DNA from: Bacillus sp. J37
GTDB lineage: Bacteria; Bacillota; Bacilli; Bacillales; Bacillaceae
Direction of reading: 5' to 3'
Length of the DNA: 43,647 nucleotides
Assembly (NCBI RefSeq): GCF_000518865.1
Contig: NZ_JAEK01000043.1
Span: forward strand, 1-43,647
Each line of letters opens with the position of its first letter. Positions within the stretch are counted from its first letter, which is position 1. Positions 1 to 43,422 of this stretch are shown piece by piece. Made by a program: the position numbers and the translations under genes. Below the pieces are notes generated by a model. It worked only from the letters and a program-made list of their open reading frames with translations. It searched no databases and was not told the origin of the DNA.

Positions 1-118
1 GTCAATCTCCACGACTGCACTTGCACGTCCTGTGCGATCTAAGGCTGGGCGCTGGAGCTGGATGTCGCACACTTATCCACAGTTAGAAGAATTTTATAGT
101 TTCCTAAGCAACAAAAAA
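1..118. repeat. Bacillus-type dispersed intergenic repeat (partial)
   Basis: Non-coding stretch at the left edge. On the minus strand it reads CTGTGGATAAGTGTGCGACA followed by CCAGCTCCAGCGCCCAGC. This resembles a dispersed intergenic repeat I recall from many Bacillus genomes (CCAGCTCCAGCGCCTAGC type). No open frame is supported. The copy may continue beyond the window. Assignment rests on recall of the motif, not on a search. Confidence 0.45.
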
Positions 119-138
119 ACTGCTGATTCAATCAGCAG
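113..138 (-). terminator. Intrinsic terminator, second copy, with T-run
   Basis: The stem-loop CTGCTGATTCAATCAGCAG at 120-138 is followed on the minus strand by seven T residues (113-119), a textbook intrinsic terminator. It is an exact copy of the hairpin at 300-318, which lies directly after the permease gene but lacks a T-run. This distal copy is probably the functional end of the transporter transcript. Confidence 0.75.
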
Positions 139-140
139 CT

Positions 141-299
141 AGTTTGTAGACAAAGTAAAACTCGCTAGCCTTTCAGACTGATTGCTAACGCTTGCGTATC
201 AAAGCACGAAGCCTTGTGAGGAGCGGAGTTACCGGTGTTGGTAATGAGCACCGCAGCAAGGTGAGTAACGAAGAAAGCGAGCGTTTGTCAACAGTCTGA
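141..299. repeat. About 160-bp repeat element between two copies of a terminator hairpin
   Basis: The segment is bounded by two identical copies of a hairpin (120-138 and 300-318). Inside are inverted segments: CAGACTG near 174-180 against CAGTCTG near 291-297, and GCTAACGCTTGCG against CGAGCGTT near the ends. It is locally G+C richer than its surroundings and has no open frame. It looks like a dispersed intergenic or MITE-like repeat that inserted in, or duplicated, the terminator of the adjacent operon. Confidence 0.5.
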
Positions 300-318
300 C
301 TGCTGATTCAATCAGCAG
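300..318 (-). terminator. Terminator hairpin, gene-proximal copy
   Basis: CTGCTGATTCAATCAGCAG forms an 8-9 bp stem immediately downstream of the permease stop. On the minus strand it is not followed by a T-run. Its identical copy at 120-138 has one. Confidence 0.5.
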
Positions 319-1317
319 CTATTTTTGCTTGTAGTAAGTAAGGGCAAGGGCAAACGCCAGAACCGTTCCTTTCACAATATCCATTGCAAAATAAGGTACG
401 GACATCATAACAAGTCCATTCTGTAATATACCAATTAAGACGGCACCGACAAATGTTCCAAAAGCATTTGGCTTACCTGCACCCAGCACAGAGAATCCAA
501 TAAATGCAGCGGCAACTGAATCCATTAAATAAGGTGCTCCAGCATTGATCTCTGCTGTCATCACTCTTGAAGCTAATACAATTCCTCCGATTGATGCAAA
601 AAGAGCAGATAAAAGATATGCGGCTACTTTATATTTATTAACAGGAATTCCAGATAATCTTGCCGCTTCAATATTCCCTCCGATTACATACATATATCGC
701 CCATGCTTTGTGTACGTTAAAAAGATATGAACAGCAATTACAACCATTACCATAATGATAATAATCCAAGGTACTTGTCCAATTTTCTCAAAAACTGGAC
801 TAATAAGACCTGTTGCAAATGTTCCGTCAGGCATGACCATATTTTGTGATACAGTTGCACCTTTCGTATATGTTAAAGCAATTCCCTGCACAATAAACAT
901 CGTTGCAAGAGTTATTAACATATCGGGAACTTTTAATTTTACTATGAAAAATGAATTTAGAACTCCAACTAATAATGAAGCTATTATAGCTGAGAATATG
1001 GCAATGAGTGTGTTCTGTGAGAACCAGACAAACATTGAAATAACAATCGCGTTTGATAATGAAGCAACAGACCCTACAGATAAGTCGAACCCATTCACAG
1101 AAAGTGAAATGGTAATACCGATTGCGATTATCGTTACTATAGATATTGATCGTAAAATATTAATAATATTATTCCCTTGAATAAAGGTTGGATTAGAAAC
1201 TGCAAACACGATGATAAGAATAAAGATCGTTAATATTGTTCCATATTTATACAAAAATTGAAACAAATCAAATGATCTTTTCCCTTTATTGGTTTGCACA
1301 GGATTTAATTCAGTCAT
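319..1317 (-). CDS. Ribose/galactose-class ABC transporter permease (candidate methylthioribose importer)
   Basis: 332-residue integral membrane protein of the RbsC/MglC type (BPD_transp_2). About eight to ten hydrophobic segments span the chain after a short charged N-terminus. The segment GFDLSVGSVASLSNAIV near residue 75 is typical of this family. It should form the membrane channel with the ATPase encoded just upstream; its ATG follows that gene's stop by one base, so translation is probably coupled. It is the last gene of a three-gene operon behind an S-box SAM riboswitch. Substrate is inferred from that control, not from the protein itself. Methylthioribose is most likely; another pentose-like methionine-salvage product or ribose is possible. 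Confidence 0.85.
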   Translation of the reverse strand: MTELNPVQTNKGKRSFDLFQFLYKYGTILTIFILIIVFAVSNPTFIQGNNIINILRSISIVTIIAIGITISLSVNGFDLSVGSVASLSNAIVISMFVWFSQNTLIAIFSAIIASLLVGVLNSFFIVKLKVPDMLITLATMFIVQGIALTYTKGATVSQNMVMPDGTFATGLISPVFEKIGQVPWIIIIMVMVVIAVHIFLTYTKHGRYMYVIGGNIEAARLSGIPVNKYKVAAYLLSALFASIGGIVLASRVMTAEINAGAPYLMDSVAAAFIGFSVLGAGKPNAFGTFVGAVLIGILQNGLVMMSVPYFAMDIVKGTVLAFALALTYYKQK

Positions 1318-1318
1318 C

Positions 1319-2824
1319 TTAGTTGCCTCCTGTTGAATAAAATAATAGGTCTTCTTCGTTTGTTATATCTGTATTTACTTCTTTAACAACCTTACCGTCA
1401 TACAAAACATATAAGCGATTTGTAATCCCGATGATTTCGGCTAATTCTGAAGAGGCATAAAGAATAGCCTTTCCTCTTTTCGCCAACTCACATATGAGTT
1501 CAAAAATATCCTTTTTCGCTCCCACATCTACTCCCTTTGTAGGTTCGTCAAAAATATAAACATCAGCATCTGTAATAAGCCATTTTCCTATTGCAATTTT
1601 CTGTTGATTTCCACCAGATAAATTTTTCACTTTCGTTTCATCTGATGGTGTTTTTATTCCAAGACTTTTAATGAGCTCAACAGCTTGTTGCTTTTCAGCT
1701 TTGCGTTTAACAAAGCTAAGTGCACTTGTGAAAGCTCCCAGGTTTGCAGCGGTTAAATTTGTTACAACCGACTCTTCTACCAAGATCCCTTCTTTTCGTC
1801 TTTCTTCAGGAACCAAGGCAATCCCCTGTTTAACTGCTTGATAAGGGCTGGTCATTTTTAGTTTTTTACCATGCAGCTTTATTTCTCCTGATGTAAGTTT
1901 CTTTTCACCAAACAAGGTTTTACATAGCTCTGTTTTACCTGCTCCTACTAAGCCTGCGATTCCGATAATTTCACCTTTTCTTACATGCAGGGAAACATCT
2001 GATAGTTTTTCATGATCATAAAGATGGTTGACCTCCAGGATCGTTTCACCAATTTTAAATATTCTCTCCGGAAACTGCTCTTCTAGCTCTCTGCCAAGCA
2101 TGTTTTCTATTACTTTATTAGGAGTTGTCTCACGAATAAGTTCATGTGTGACAAGCATTCCGTTTCTCATGATTGTAATCTCATCACAAATCTCAAATAT
2201 TTCAGGAAGACGGTGTGAAATAAAAATAATCCCGACATCTTTCTCTTTTAGATCACGAATAACCCTGAATAATTCCTTTGTCTCAGCATGACTTAATGGT
2301 GCAGTCGGCTCATCGAGGATAAGGAATTTACATTTTGACGAGACAGTTCTTGCAATCAGCACCATCTGTTTTTCTGCAAGAGTCAGTTCACTTACCAGCT
2401 TTTTAGATGACACCTTTATATTTAAGCTATTTAAAATTTCAGTTGCTTGTTGATGGATTTGCTTCCAGCGAATGAATTGCCTCTTTCCCATCTCACTCAC
2501 TGTTTTGGTGAGCATAATGTTCTCTCCTACTGTTAAATATGGGATAAGGGCTGTATCCACTTCCTGATGAACAATTTGAATACCTTGTACTTGTGCATCC
2601 CTAGGGTCTTTAATTAACACTTCTTTGCCGTCTATTTGAATTTGTCCTTTGTAATGATTGTAAGCACCTGATAAAACTTTCATTAGAGTCGATTTTCCGG
2701 CACCATTTGCTCCAATTAGTGCATGAGTCGTACCGCTTTTCATCGTAAAATCAACAGAGTCAAGTGCTTTTACTCCAGGAAACTCAATTGTAATTCCTCT
2801 CATATTTAATACTGATGTATTCAT
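1319..2824 (-). CDS. Sugar ABC transporter ATP-binding protein with two nucleotide-binding domains (RbsA/MglA class)
   Basis: 501 residues with two ABC ATPase domains in tandem, as in RbsA and MglA. The first has Walker A GANGAGKST at residues 38-46, a signature-like LTLAEKQM and Walker B ending LILDEPTAPLS. The second has GLVGAGKTE, signature LSGGNQQK and FDEPTKGVD. Length is normal for the family. It powers the adjacent permease. The gene follows the binding protein after a 140-bp spacer that holds a hairpin and precedes the permease by one base. A minus-strand AGGAAGGAAA serves as ribosome binding site. The operon is under the S-box riboswitch at 4226-4344. Confidence 0.9.
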   Translation of the reverse strand: MNTSVLNMRGITIEFPGVKALDSVDFTMKSGTTHALIGANGAGKSTLMKVLSGAYNHYKGQIQIDGKEVLIKDPRDAQVQGIQIVHQEVDTALIPYLTVGENIMLTKTVSEMGKRQFIRWKQIHQQATEILNSLNIKVSSKKLVSELTLAEKQMVLIARTVSSKCKFLILDEPTAPLSHAETKELFRVIRDLKEKDVGIIFISHRLPEIFEICDEITIMRNGMLVTHELIRETTPNKVIENMLGRELEEQFPERIFKIGETILEVNHLYDHEKLSDVSLHVRKGEIIGIAGLVGAGKTELCKTLFGEKKLTSGEIKLHGKKLKMTSPYQAVKQGIALVPEERRKEGILVEESVVTNLTAANLGAFTSALSFVKRKAEKQQAVELIKSLGIKTPSDETKVKNLSGGNQQKIAIGKWLITDADVYIFDEPTKGVDVGAKKDIFELICELAKRGKAILYASSELAEIIGITNRLYVLYDGKVVKEVNTDITNEEDLLFYSTGGN

Positions 2825-2905
2825 TTTCCTTCCTCCTTCCTTATTGATCTTTTCTTGGTTTTATTGGAATTCTTAATTGGAGGTTTATATAGAGGAAAAA
2901 AGGGA

Positions 2906-2954
2906 GAGAGACGGGTGTTTCGAGAGTAAGAACTAAGACTTCCACCCGTTCTCT
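2906..2954 (-). terminator. Intercistronic hairpin between binding protein and ATPase genes
   Basis: Arms AGAGAGACGGGTG-like (2906-2917) and CACCCGTTCTCT (2943-2954) pair over about 11 bp. On the minus strand the stem is followed by CTCCCTTTTTTCC. Such a leaky terminator or 3'-protecting hairpin commonly lets the binding protein be made in excess over the membrane parts. Confidence 0.55.
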
Positions 2955-2964
2955 GCTAGAGATA

Positions 2965-4092
2965 TTATTTCTTATAATATTCTTTTAATGTTTTCATCCA
3001 TTCTTCTTCAAATGCATCTGACTGACCCCAACCTTCCACAGTGTCAGCTAAATTCACCATATTAATAGGCTCATTCGATTGAAGTAATGCGTCTTGTGAA
3101 ATAAGTGATGCTTCAAGATTATATGTTTCAGGTGTTTCTTCATCAGCAAGTTTTTTTGCCAAAATTCTCATGTCCACTGCACCGATAAGCTTTGGATCAA
3201 CAGCTGCCGTGTATTTCCATGAGCTTGCTTCATTTTGCATTTCTTGTAGATCCGCATTCGAAACATCAATACCATAAATCTTAATTTCATCTCTTCCCGC
3301 TTCTTTAATGGCACGTGCTGCACCGATTGCAAATGCATCCCATGTTGCGAAAATTGCATCAATTTCACCTTTCGGGTGCTTATTAAGCATAGAAGCAACA
3401 GCATTTTGCGTTTGAACAGATGTATCTGCAGATGCAATACCAAAGCGCTCTACTTCTTTAATCCCCGGATTATTCTTTAAAACATCTTGGTAAACAGCGT
3501 TTCTTCTAACCATTGGAGGGAATCCGTCAACCCAAAGGTATACGATATTCGCTTCACCTTTTGTCTCTTTCACTAATTGATCTAAAGCTAATTTAGCCAG
3601 CGCTTCATCATCCTGTGAAGTTAATGTCACTCCATTAATTTTTGATAATCCATCAATCGAGTCAAATGTAACAACACTTTTACCTGCATCAACCAACTTT
3701 TGCACAGCATTAATTGTTGCTTCATCATCACCATGAGAAATGATAAATCCATCATAATCTTCTTCAAGTCCTTGTGCGATGGCATCATGGAATTTAGCTA
3801 TGTCACCATTTGCGGTGAACACATCAACTTGGAAGCCTAATGCTTCCCCTTCTTCTTTAGCTCCTGCTAGAAATTGAGCTGTATGATCATCCCCGCCAAT
3901 TTTGCGGATTACTTTAATTTTTACTTCTTCACCATCTTTAAATCTTTCAGGCACATTATCGAGTGACACGTCAGGATTCCCTTTTGATTTTGTCGACTCA
4001 TTCGTTCCACCATTACTGGATGAACACCCTGAAACAAATATGGATAATACCAATGTTAAAATAAATAATGTGTTAAATAGTTTGTTCTTCAT
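2965..4092 (-). CDS. Sugar ABC transporter substrate-binding lipoprotein (Peripla_BP_4 type)
   Basis: 375 residues. A signal peptide ends in lipobox VSGC (residues 20-23), so Cys23 should be lipidated and the protein anchored outside the membrane. A low-complexity Ser/Gly/Asn linker follows. The rest is a type I periplasmic-binding fold of the RbsB/MglB group, with recognisable segments KVIRKIGGDDHTAQFL, GFIISHGDD and AIFATWDAFAIGAARAIKEAG. It is the first gene of the operon, 84 bases below the S-box terminator. The natural ligand cannot be read from sequence; the SAM riboswitch suggests 5-methylthioribose. AGGGGAGCAATGCAGCTATG gives the ribosome binding site and start. Confidence 0.88.
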   Translation of the reverse strand: MKNKLFNTLFILTLVLSIFVSGCSSSNGGTNESTKSKGNPDVSLDNVPERFKDGEEVKIKVIRKIGGDDHTAQFLAGAKEEGEALGFQVDVFTANGDIAKFHDAIAQGLEEDYDGFIISHGDDEATINAVQKLVDAGKSVVTFDSIDGLSKINGVTLTSQDDEALAKLALDQLVKETKGEANIVYLWVDGFPPMVRRNAVYQDVLKNNPGIKEVERFGIASADTSVQTQNAVASMLNKHPKGEIDAIFATWDAFAIGAARAIKEAGRDEIKIYGIDVSNADLQEMQNEASSWKYTAAVDPKLIGAVDMRILAKKLADEETPETYNLEASLISQDALLQSNEPINMVNLADTVEGWGQSDAFEEEWMKTLKEYYKK

Positions 4093-4175
4093 AGCTGCAT
4101 TGCTCCCCTCAATTAATAGAATATGATTTACTCATGCCTTGAACTTGTTCTCTCTAATTTCACAAGTCCGGGCAA

Positions 4176-4206
4176 CACAAAAAACCTCTCTAAGACAGAG
4201 AGGTTT
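4176..4206 (-). terminator. S-box expression-platform terminator
   Basis: Perfect stem AAACCTCTCT / AGAGAGGTTT (4182-4206, loop AAGAC region) followed on the minus strand by TTTTTTGTG. It lies between the SAM aptamer and the binding-protein gene, so SAM binding would favour this terminator and stop transcription of the transporter. Confidence 0.88.
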
Positions 4207-4225
4207 CACCACAATAATAGGAGTC

Positions 4226-4344
4226 TCCTCTCTTATCTTTCAAAGCCATACAGCTTTGCAGGATTTAGCACCAATTCTATTCGGAAATAGAACGGTTGCC
4301 GGGCATCATCGGGCCAGTCCCTCTGCCACTCTTGATAAGAGATG
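4226..4344 (-). promoter_or_regulatory. SAM riboswitch (S-box, SAM-I)
   Basis: The minus strand carries the conserved S-box landmarks in order: P1 arm CTCTTATC, AAGAGTGGCAGAGGGACTGG, CCCGATGATGCCCGGCAACC, GGTGCTAAATCC, and the closing GATAAGAG that pairs with the first arm (4230-4237 with 4336-4343). A terminator follows at 4176-4206. In Bacillales S-boxes control methionine synthesis, transport and salvage. Here it controls a ribose-class ABC transporter. Confidence 0.95.
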
Positions 4345-4378
4345 TTTTTATGCGATTAAGTAAAATAACAATACATAT

Positions 4379-4407
4379 ACTTTAATCCGGTATAGAATGA
4401 ATGTCAA
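4379..4407 (-). promoter_or_regulatory. Sigma-A promoter of the riboswitch-controlled transporter operon
   Basis: Perfect -35 TTGACA (4402-4407), 17-bp spacer, -10 TAAAGT (4379-4384, four of six matches). Transcription would start near 4372, about 28 bases before the aptamer. Confidence 0.6.
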
Positions 4408-4959: not shown

Positions 4960-6639
4960 TTGGAACACAATTCCTCAAACTTTATTAAAACAATTATTAA
5001 AGAGGACCTTGAGACAGGAAAACGGGATTATGTGTACACTCGCTTCCCGCCGGAACCAAATGGCTATCTTCATATTGGTCATGCAAAATCGATTGTTATT
5101 AACTTTGGATTAGCAGATGAATTTAATGGAAAAACAAATTTACGATTTGATGATACAAATCCATTAAAAGAGGATACAGAGTATGTAGAATCCATTAAAG
5201 AAGATGTAGCCTGGTTAGGCTACGACTGGGACGGTTTATTCTTTGCATCCGATTATTTTGAAGAAATGTACAATCGTGCCGTTCTCCTTATCAAAAAAGG
5301 AAAAGCCTATGTAGATGATTTAACAGCTGATGAAATTAGGGAATATCGTGGTACATTGACTGAGCCTGGTAAAGAAAGTCCATACCGAACTCGCTCTATT
5401 GAGGAAAACCTTGATTTATTTGAGCGTATGCGTAATGGAGAATTTGGCAATGGAGAAAAGGTTCTCCGCGCAAAAATTGATATGTCATCACCAAATATAA
5501 ATTTACGTGATCCTGTTATCTACCGTGTTTCACATGCTGCTCATCATAATACTGGCGATACATGGTGTATCTATCCAATGTATGCTTTTGCTCATCCACT
5601 CGAAGATGCAATCGAAGGCATTACACATTCCTTATGTACAACAGAGTTTGAGGACCAACGCCCTCTTTATAACTGGGTCATTGAAGAATGTGAAATGGAG
5701 CATAAACCACAACAAATAGAATTTGGTCGTTTAGGTATCACCAATACAGTAATGAGTAAGCGAAAATTAAAACAACTGGTTGATGAAAAGGTTGTTGATG
5801 GATGGGATGATCCACGTATGCCAACAATCTCCGGGCTACGTAGAAAAGGATATACGCCAAAAGCTATTCGTGAGTTTGTAAAAGAAACAGGTGTTTCTAA
5901 AGGATTTGCTACTGCAGACGAAGCAATGCTTGAGCATTTTGTCCGCGAAGACTTAAAACTTCAAGCTCCTCGAACAATGGGAATCTTGAAGCCTTTGAAA
6001 GTTGTCATTACAAATTATCCGGAAGATCAAGTTGAAATGCTTGATGCAGAGATTAACCCTGAAGTGCCTGAGATGGGAACAAGACAAATTCCATTTTCCC
6101 GTGAAATTTATATCGAGCAAGAGGACTTTATGGAAAACCCTCCAAAAAAATATTTCCGCCTGTTCCCTGGAAATGAAGTAAGATTAAAACATGCTTATTT
6201 CATTAAATGTGAAGAGGTTATTAAAGATGAAAATGGAAATGTGATGGAGATTCATTGTACCTACGATCCGGAAACAAAGAGTGGTACCGGCTTTACTGGT
6301 CGTAAAGTAAAAGGGACATTACACTGGGTTGATGCAAAACATGCATTGCCTGCGGAATTTCGTTTATATGAGCCACTTATCCTTGATAAGCAAAAAGACG
6401 AAGAAGTTGAAGATGAGGTTGAGTCTTCAGAAGAAAAAACGTTCCTTGATTATATAAATGAAAACTCTCTTGAAGTTTTACAAGGATTTATTGAACCGAA
6501 TATGAAGGATATTCAACCACAAGACAAATTTCAATTTTTCCGCCATGGATACTTTAATGTGGATCCTAAGCACACAACAGCAGAAAAAACGGTATTCAAT
6601 CGGATCGTGTCTCTGAAAAGTTCTTTTAAATTAAAATAA
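4960..6639 (+). CDS. glnS: Glutaminyl-tRNA synthetase
   Basis: 559-residue class I aminoacyl-tRNA synthetase that charges tRNA-Gln directly; E. coli GlnRS has a similar length. The Rossmann domain carries HIGH in [15 protein letters not shown] (residues 38-41) and the KMSKS-like loop VMSKRKL near residues 264-270, followed by [18 protein letters not shown], diagnostic of GlnRS against GluRS. The C-terminal anticodon-binding beta-barrels follow from about residue 335. Translation starts at TTG, preceded by AAAGAAAGG. Most Bacillus species lack GlnRS and use GluRS plus the GatCAB amidotransferase, so the gene is probably of transferred origin. It stands alone between a small gene and a converging kinase gene. 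Confidence 0.95.
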
Positions 6640-43339: not shown

Positions 43340-43422
43340 TGATCGAGTAGAGGGAAAATAATCTAATTATTTTCGCCCCTCTCACACCACCGTACGTACG
43401 GTTCCGTATACGGCGGTTCAAT
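43340..43422 (-). mobile_element. Group II intron 3' end (domains V-VI)
   Basis: Minus strand after the maturase stop reads GAACCGCCGTATACGGAACC, then GTACGTACGGTGGTGTGAGA, then a hairpin GGGCGAAAATAAT / ATTATTTTCCCTC (domain VI), ending CTACTCGAT. This arrangement is that of bacterial group II introns. The exon junction is near 43345. Confidence 0.8.

Follow-up and report, generated by a model that had tools for sequence, protein, structure and literature searches.

Comparative genomics has predicted an importer for 5-methylthioribose (MTR). In the passages of PMC3228920 (2011) on this importer, it is named MtrACB, is placed in Bacillus cereus and enterobacteria, is credited to Rodionov 2004, and is called probable and not functionally characterised; the control there is by an S-box in B. 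cereus and by met boxes in gammaproteobacteria. The gene names differ between papers, mtrACB in those passages and mtnXYZ in the corresponding part of PMC4239095. The initial annotation of the locus studied here had called the predicted importer MtnABC; the prediction is in print, but that name was not found in those passages. Among open-licensed papers, without their supplements, we found no test of an ABC-type MTR importer.

Other systems are related by task or by gene content. For example, B. subtilis is reported, in the part of PMC5743806 on this subject, to import MTR by YfnA/MtrA. This is the task proposed here for the importer of Bacillus sp. J37, so MTR uptake does not need that importer. 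YfnA/MtrA is not known to be an ABC importer. The drdK-drdI-drdA clusters, some of which contain putative sugar transporter genes according to the relevant passages of PMC6079011, are of interest because the importer of several relatives adjoins such genes; unlike these clusters, the host genome is without a close drdA and its importer is controlled by an S-box.

In this study, a stretch of 43,647 nucleotides of Bacillus sp. J37 (contig NZ_JAEK01000043.1, positions 1 to 43,647, forward strand; hereafter the window) was analysed. Judging from the sequence, we believe that an operon in it very probably encodes an ABC importer for MTR that would be made when SAM is scarce, and we infer MTR as the substrate from regulation, gene linkage and co-occurrence. 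Like MtrACB, the host system is a three-part sugar-type ABC importer with predicted SAM-dependent control and co-occurrence with mtn genes; unlike MtrACB, it stands alone, away from the mtn clusters. The host importer is a further member of the predicted MtrACB family, with stronger context evidence, and not a new kind.

The operon and its leader RNA

The binding protein, ATPase and permease are encoded in one operon, which with its leader runs from 4407 to 319 on the minus strand (Table 1). The span 2965..4407 given at first holds the leader and the binding-protein gene, but the operon extends to 319. The description of a complete S-box with terminator and promoter before a three-gene importer of the RbsABC class was borne out by the RF00162 score, the terminator stem and the Pfam domains, while the promoter-like site is weak evidence, with 4 such consensus matches in the region against 1.6 expected.

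Table 1. Features of the importer operon and its surroundings in the window
Feature	Position	Strand	Evidence
Promoter-like site TTGACA-17-TAAAGT	4379..4407	-	10/12 consensus positions
SAM-I riboswitch aptamer (S-box)	4230..4341	-	RF00162, 96.1 bits, E 4.7e-22
Possible antiterminator	4193..4238	-	P1 3' strand pairs with terminator 5' arm; prediction
Intrinsic terminator	4181..4207	-	12-pair stem, loop 3, T-rich tail
Substrate-binding protein gene (MtrB-type; group A)	2965..4092	-	375 aa; Peripla_BP_4, 123.7 bits
Gap with predicted stem-loop between binding protein and ATPase genes	2825..2964	-	Fold -29.2 kcal/mol
ATPase gene, two ABC domains (MtrA-type)	1319..2824	-	501 aa; ABC_tran, 2 stretches
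Permease gene (MtrC-type)	319..1317	-	332 aa; BPD_transp_2, 129 bits
Long inverted repeat downstream of operon	113..325		42-nt arms 113-154 and 284-325, 81% complementary

The S-box match spans model positions 1-108 of 108, the gathering score of RF00162 being 44.4. A chance S-box was ruled out by this score and by the conservation in relatives. The terminator search gave 1 site against 0.1 expected. By structure prediction, the terminator and the antiterminator downstream of the S-box would be mutually exclusive, and the predicted antiterminator stretch (4193-4245) folded in isolation at -15.1 kcal/mol against -14.8 for the terminator alone; P1 was absent from the predicted best fold in two of four truncated transcripts, so these energies are not proof of a switch. 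The leader from 4345 to 4170 had a predicted fold of -56.6 kcal/mol, whereas its shuffles averaged -44.4 (z -3.1); it was more stable than 199 of 200 of them.

The leader thus appears to have the usual off-switch anatomy of SAM-I riboswitches. When SAM is bound, P1 would form and its 3' strand would become unavailable to the 5' arm of the terminator; the terminator would then fold, and transcription would stop before the binding-protein gene. In this sequence of events the anatomy is seen in the leader, and the action is deduced from it. Without SAM, the antiterminator would form and the three genes would be transcribed. The binding protein would capture MTR released by other cells, the importer would carry it into the cell, and MTR would be converted to methionine by the Mtn enzymes, whose genes lie in S-box clusters elsewhere in the genome. 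The predicted stem-loop between the first two genes may raise the output of the binding protein over that of the ATPase. The arms of the downstream inverted repeat lie 129 nt apart, and direct repeats of 27 nt were found at positions 119 and 299; the element is possibly an operon terminator or a small mobile element.

Two other features were recorded in the window. A glutaminyl-tRNA synthetase gene lies at 4960-6639 on the plus strand (742.7 bits, cut-off 425.8), and such a gene also lies near the importer in the related loci L012-L018, L029 and L060; to our knowledge, this enzyme is unusual in Bacillaceae. A group II intron match was found at 43342-43418 on the minus strand (46 bits, gathering score 40).

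Conservation of the S-box and linkage with mtn genes

Eighty loci, kept of 199, were fetched by binding-protein similarity alone (best segments 69-99% identical) and scanned with a model built from six host S-boxes, including that of the importer itself. An S-box was found in 71 of the 80 loci: 70 within 600 bp upstream of the binding-protein gene and one, in L091, 3.2 kb upstream at the head of the operon. Loci from the order sample gave 26 of 29, and among 20 more divergent group A loci 12 had an S-box and 8 did not; the fetched stretches of three of these eight (L143, L154 and L156) contained no mtn genes. The locus sets overlap in part, identical proteins occurring in some loci. In an alignment of 58 distinct group A S-boxes, which was fitted to the model and leans towards the structure, 99.6% of the pair cells were standard, and two-sided changes occurred in 4 of 26 pairs, a level reached by 4 of 500 shuffles. 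Rescanning the nine S-box-free loci of the 80 with Rfam at the gathering score gained no S-box. One of them, L090, lies on a contig that ends just upstream of an mtnB-like gene, and its S-box may lie beyond the contig end. The others (L019, L020, L023, L039, L054, L057, L058 and L061) are not cut short just upstream.

The search was also extended to 397 genomes of the order Bacillales, in which the matches to the binding protein fell into three bands: group A, that of the host, with at least 63% identity (62 genomes); group B, with 36-47% (84 genomes); and a band of weak matches. One genome fell in both groups, and B. cereus MtrACB may belong to either. MtnK scored above its cut-off in 223 of the 397 genomes. 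It was present in all 62 group A genomes against 161 of the 335 others, and in all 84 group B genomes; 78 of the 252 genomes with neither group also had it. The Fisher p value for group A and MtnK was 4e-18, which is too small owing to kinship, the 62 genomes representing 26 genera and not 62 independent events.

Linkage to mtn genes was seen in relatives. Genes like mtnK-mtnA followed the permease gene in 10 of the 80 loci and, among the more divergent group A loci, in 12 of 20, and in group B the importer lay beside mtnK-mtnA in 15 of 20 fetched loci. Eighteen of these 20 had an upstream S-box on the same strand as the importer genes; of these S-boxes, those of L126 and L138 lay 0.7-0.8 kb before mtnK and that of L141 before mtnW. 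In L091, a single S-box heads the series mtnW-mtnX-mtnB-mtnD-binding protein-ATPase-permease-mtnK-mtnA, where we presume the names of mtnX, mtnB and mtnD from likeness. This fused operon is the strongest single argument for MTR. In another reading, the importer would carry MTA or another SAM-derived nucleoside instead of a free sugar. S-box control would fit such a substrate equally well, but the linked genes start with the MTR kinase, which takes the free sugar, and the protein class binds sugars according to Pfam; we consider this reading extremely improbable.

The host genome itself contained ten S-box matches, nine of them above the cut-off. Their neighbours were this importer, metE, a yoaD-like gene, metN, a metE-like gene, mtnK-mtnA, mtnW, a metB/C-type gene and yitJ, most of these names being presumed from the sequences; the tenth match, below the cut-off, adjoins metK. 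The host MtnK scored 542.7 bits (cut-off 275), and MtnA, MtnB and MtnX scored 463.8 (279), 209.5 (137.05) and 350.9 (303.2) bits against curated cut-offs. MtnW, MtnD, MtnE and MtnU were presumptively named by position and likeness; for the presumed MtnD, a 185-aa protein, NCBIfam gave no match at 1e-10. The host mtn genes lie in clusters with S-boxes, on another contig than the importer. Because MtnK, MtnA, MtnB and MtnX are all above their cut-offs, the host should manage the use of MTR once it is inside the cell. The suggested check for mtnK and mtnA elsewhere in the genome was thus positive, and the proposal of a candidate MTR importer gained support from the S-box-bearing mtn clusters, from the constant presence of MtnK in group A and from the mtn linkage in relatives.

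Another of the host S-boxes (G000:C94:168342-168432) precedes genes for a hydroxyacid dehydrogenase, an FGGY kinase and a transporter of the RbtT/DalT/CsbX type (L170:1749-5493). The best model for the kinase was AI-2 kinase, far under the cut-off. This gene group presumably resembles yoaDCB of B. subtilis.

Comparison with named sugar importers

The best NCBIfam matches of the three proteins were RbsB, RbsA and ribose permease. The ribose cut-offs of RbsABC were not reached by the binding protein (46.6 of 337 bits), the ATPase (507 of 745) or the permease (190.2 of 398), nor were the AI-2 cut-offs of LsrB (26 of 384), LsrA (379.6 of 586), LsrC (103.7 of 388) and LsrD (97.1 of 500). The ATPase was under every curated NCBIfam cut-off among the best 25 of 193 rows. 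Ribose, galactose, allose, AI-2 and galactofuranose importers were rejected, with no curated cut-off reached (for the ATPase, among its best 25 of 193 rows).

The shared protein class and these best matches could also mean that an S-box has come by chance to stand before an ordinary importer of ribose, galactose or AI-2. The scores under the curated cut-offs argue against it, as do the S-box in 71 of 80 loci, MtnK in 62 of 62 genomes, and the mtnK-mtnA genes downstream of the permease gene (10 of 80 loci and 12 of 20 further ones), and we regard it as highly improbable.

The structure model of the binding protein had a mean pLDDT of 87.9. The best solved relatives were 5ulb_A, a putative sugar ABC transporter protein (E 4.8e-98, host residues 52-369), and 4ry8_A, homologous over 329 residues (E 6.9e-50), which we take to be an MTR-bound binding protein. 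5ulb_A is at most 53% identical to any row of the tree set, and 4ry8_A, which is distant, at most 42%. Their placing is unsure in the binding-protein tree, which was built by FastTree and carried a long-branch warning. The S-box-free rows were scattered among the S-box rows in this tree. The closest named relatives by binding protein, both 99% identical, were Metabacillus niabensis and M. halosaccharovorans.

Aldolase clusters, split loci and the possible range of substrates

The main substrate could instead be 5-deoxyribose, a by-product of radical SAM enzymes, with MTR secondary or not taken. Orthologues of the importer in L020, L023, L039, L054, L057, L061 and L074 adjoin genes for a DeoR regulator and a DrdA-like class II aldolase, which directly follow the importer, kinase and isomerase genes. 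L074 has a weaker S-box (73.3 bits) and an aldolase 74% identical to that of L163. In all of these clusters but L039 (6/7), genes for an aldehyde dehydrogenase, microcompartment shell proteins and a PduL-type enzyme come next; L163-L168 are the continuations of L020, L023, L074, L057, L054 and L061, and Pfam confirmed these domains for L164. The aldolase and shell genes also lie together in the L058 genome.

The genomes were surveyed for an aldolase with 74% or more identity to the L163 enzyme. It was present, in fact at 79% or more, in all eight genomes whose fetched locus is free of an S-box and not cut short, and was absent from that of L090; it was present in 8 of the 56 S-box loci covered by the survey (L026, L032, L038, L040, L043, L046, L051 and L074), 15 further S-box loci lying outside it. 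In the L019 genome the gene is divided between two contigs. Another 12 matches were to aldolases of lower identity (46-51%). The aldolase clusters without an S-box point to 5-deoxyribose, and their pathway corresponds to the one that Beaudoin 2018 describes for this sugar in passages of PMC6079011, where DrdK also has similar kcat/Km values for MTR and 5-deoxyribose. We speculated that L163-L168 possibly encode a microcompartment for the breakdown of 5-deoxyribose or MTR. The word "microcompartment" is absent from the text of PMC6079011, the main text of the microcompartment catalogue PMC8217296 gave no match for methylthio, kinase or Bacillus, and open-licensed papers, without supplements, yielded none that joins microcompartments and 5-deoxyribose. 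A passage of PMC7593272 mentions an MTR kinase gene of Acetobacterium woodii beside a shell gene, and calls it unrelated to microcompartment function.

The importer proteins do not decide the matter. At 73-79% identity, the binding proteins of the aldolase clusters are no further from that of the host than many binding proteins under an S-box, so MTR and 5-deoxyribose cannot be told apart from sequence alone. Kinases encoded next to group A importers share 61-100% identity with the L023 kinase and 41-46% with the host MtnK, both where mtnWXBD adjoin and where drdA does. In L019, L023 and L039, a single ATPase gene follows a tandem pair of binding-protein genes (62-67% and 76-79% identity to that of the host).

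The host genome and the SAM control are more informative. No close DrdA was found in the host genome, the best match having 29% identity and 53.7 bits against 449 bits or more in eight genomes with an unbroken match, and no microcompartment genes were found there either. A DHAP shunt in the host was ruled out on these two grounds. A SAM riboswitch precedes the importer genes, as it does the mtn genes; 5-deoxyribose is free of sulfur; and the operon fused with mtnWXBD exists in L091. We therefore favour MTR in the host, since the genome has no close aldolase and the control is by SAM, and 5-deoxyribose as its main substrate seems unlikely. The substrate proposed at first is supported, but the relatives in 5-deoxyribose-type clusters suggest that MTR is perhaps not the sole one. 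The importer may take both MTR and 5-deoxyribose, and the riboswitch would then mark its use in sulfur salvage.

Six of the S-box loci with an aldolase (L026, L032, L038, L040, L046 and L051), from Neobacillus-type genomes, had no ATPase or permease gene after the binding-protein gene; the genes were listed individually for three of the six. The aldolase is present in all six genomes, at 78-82% identity. When the whole genomes were searched, each had a single close binding protein (74-75% identity, next match at most 47.2 bits) and a single close permease (79-80%, next at most 172 bits). The two genes are on separate contigs, except in the L046 genome, whose single chromosome carries them 0.42 million bases apart. 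The permease regions were read in five of the six (L171-L174 and L176, L172 beginning inside the ATPase gene) and had the order ATPase-permease-kinase-isomerase, with the aldolase 0.4-9.7 kb further; neither a binding protein nor an S-box was found in these stretches. As a control, the L043 genome has the aldolase, with the binding protein and permease side by side. The lone S-box binding protein may serve the distant permease; no other close partner was found in the whole-genome searches.

Taken together, we give about an even chance to the view that importer, kinase and isomerase form a movable cassette that takes up and activates 5-substituted pentoses, both MTR and 5-deoxyribose. In some genomes it would be connected with sulfur salvage and controlled by a SAM riboswitch; in others it would be connected with an aldolase pathway next to a DeoR regulator, with the aldehyde handled in a microcompartment. 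It would be split in the six Neobacillus-type genomes, where SAM would control the receptor alone.

These results strengthen the 2004 prediction of this importer for much of the Bacillaceae and name a clean test protein. The versions that are split or linked to a microcompartment suggest how one importer family is shared by a SAM sensor and a carbon pathway. An exchange of MTR between species would be a sulfur-sharing route.
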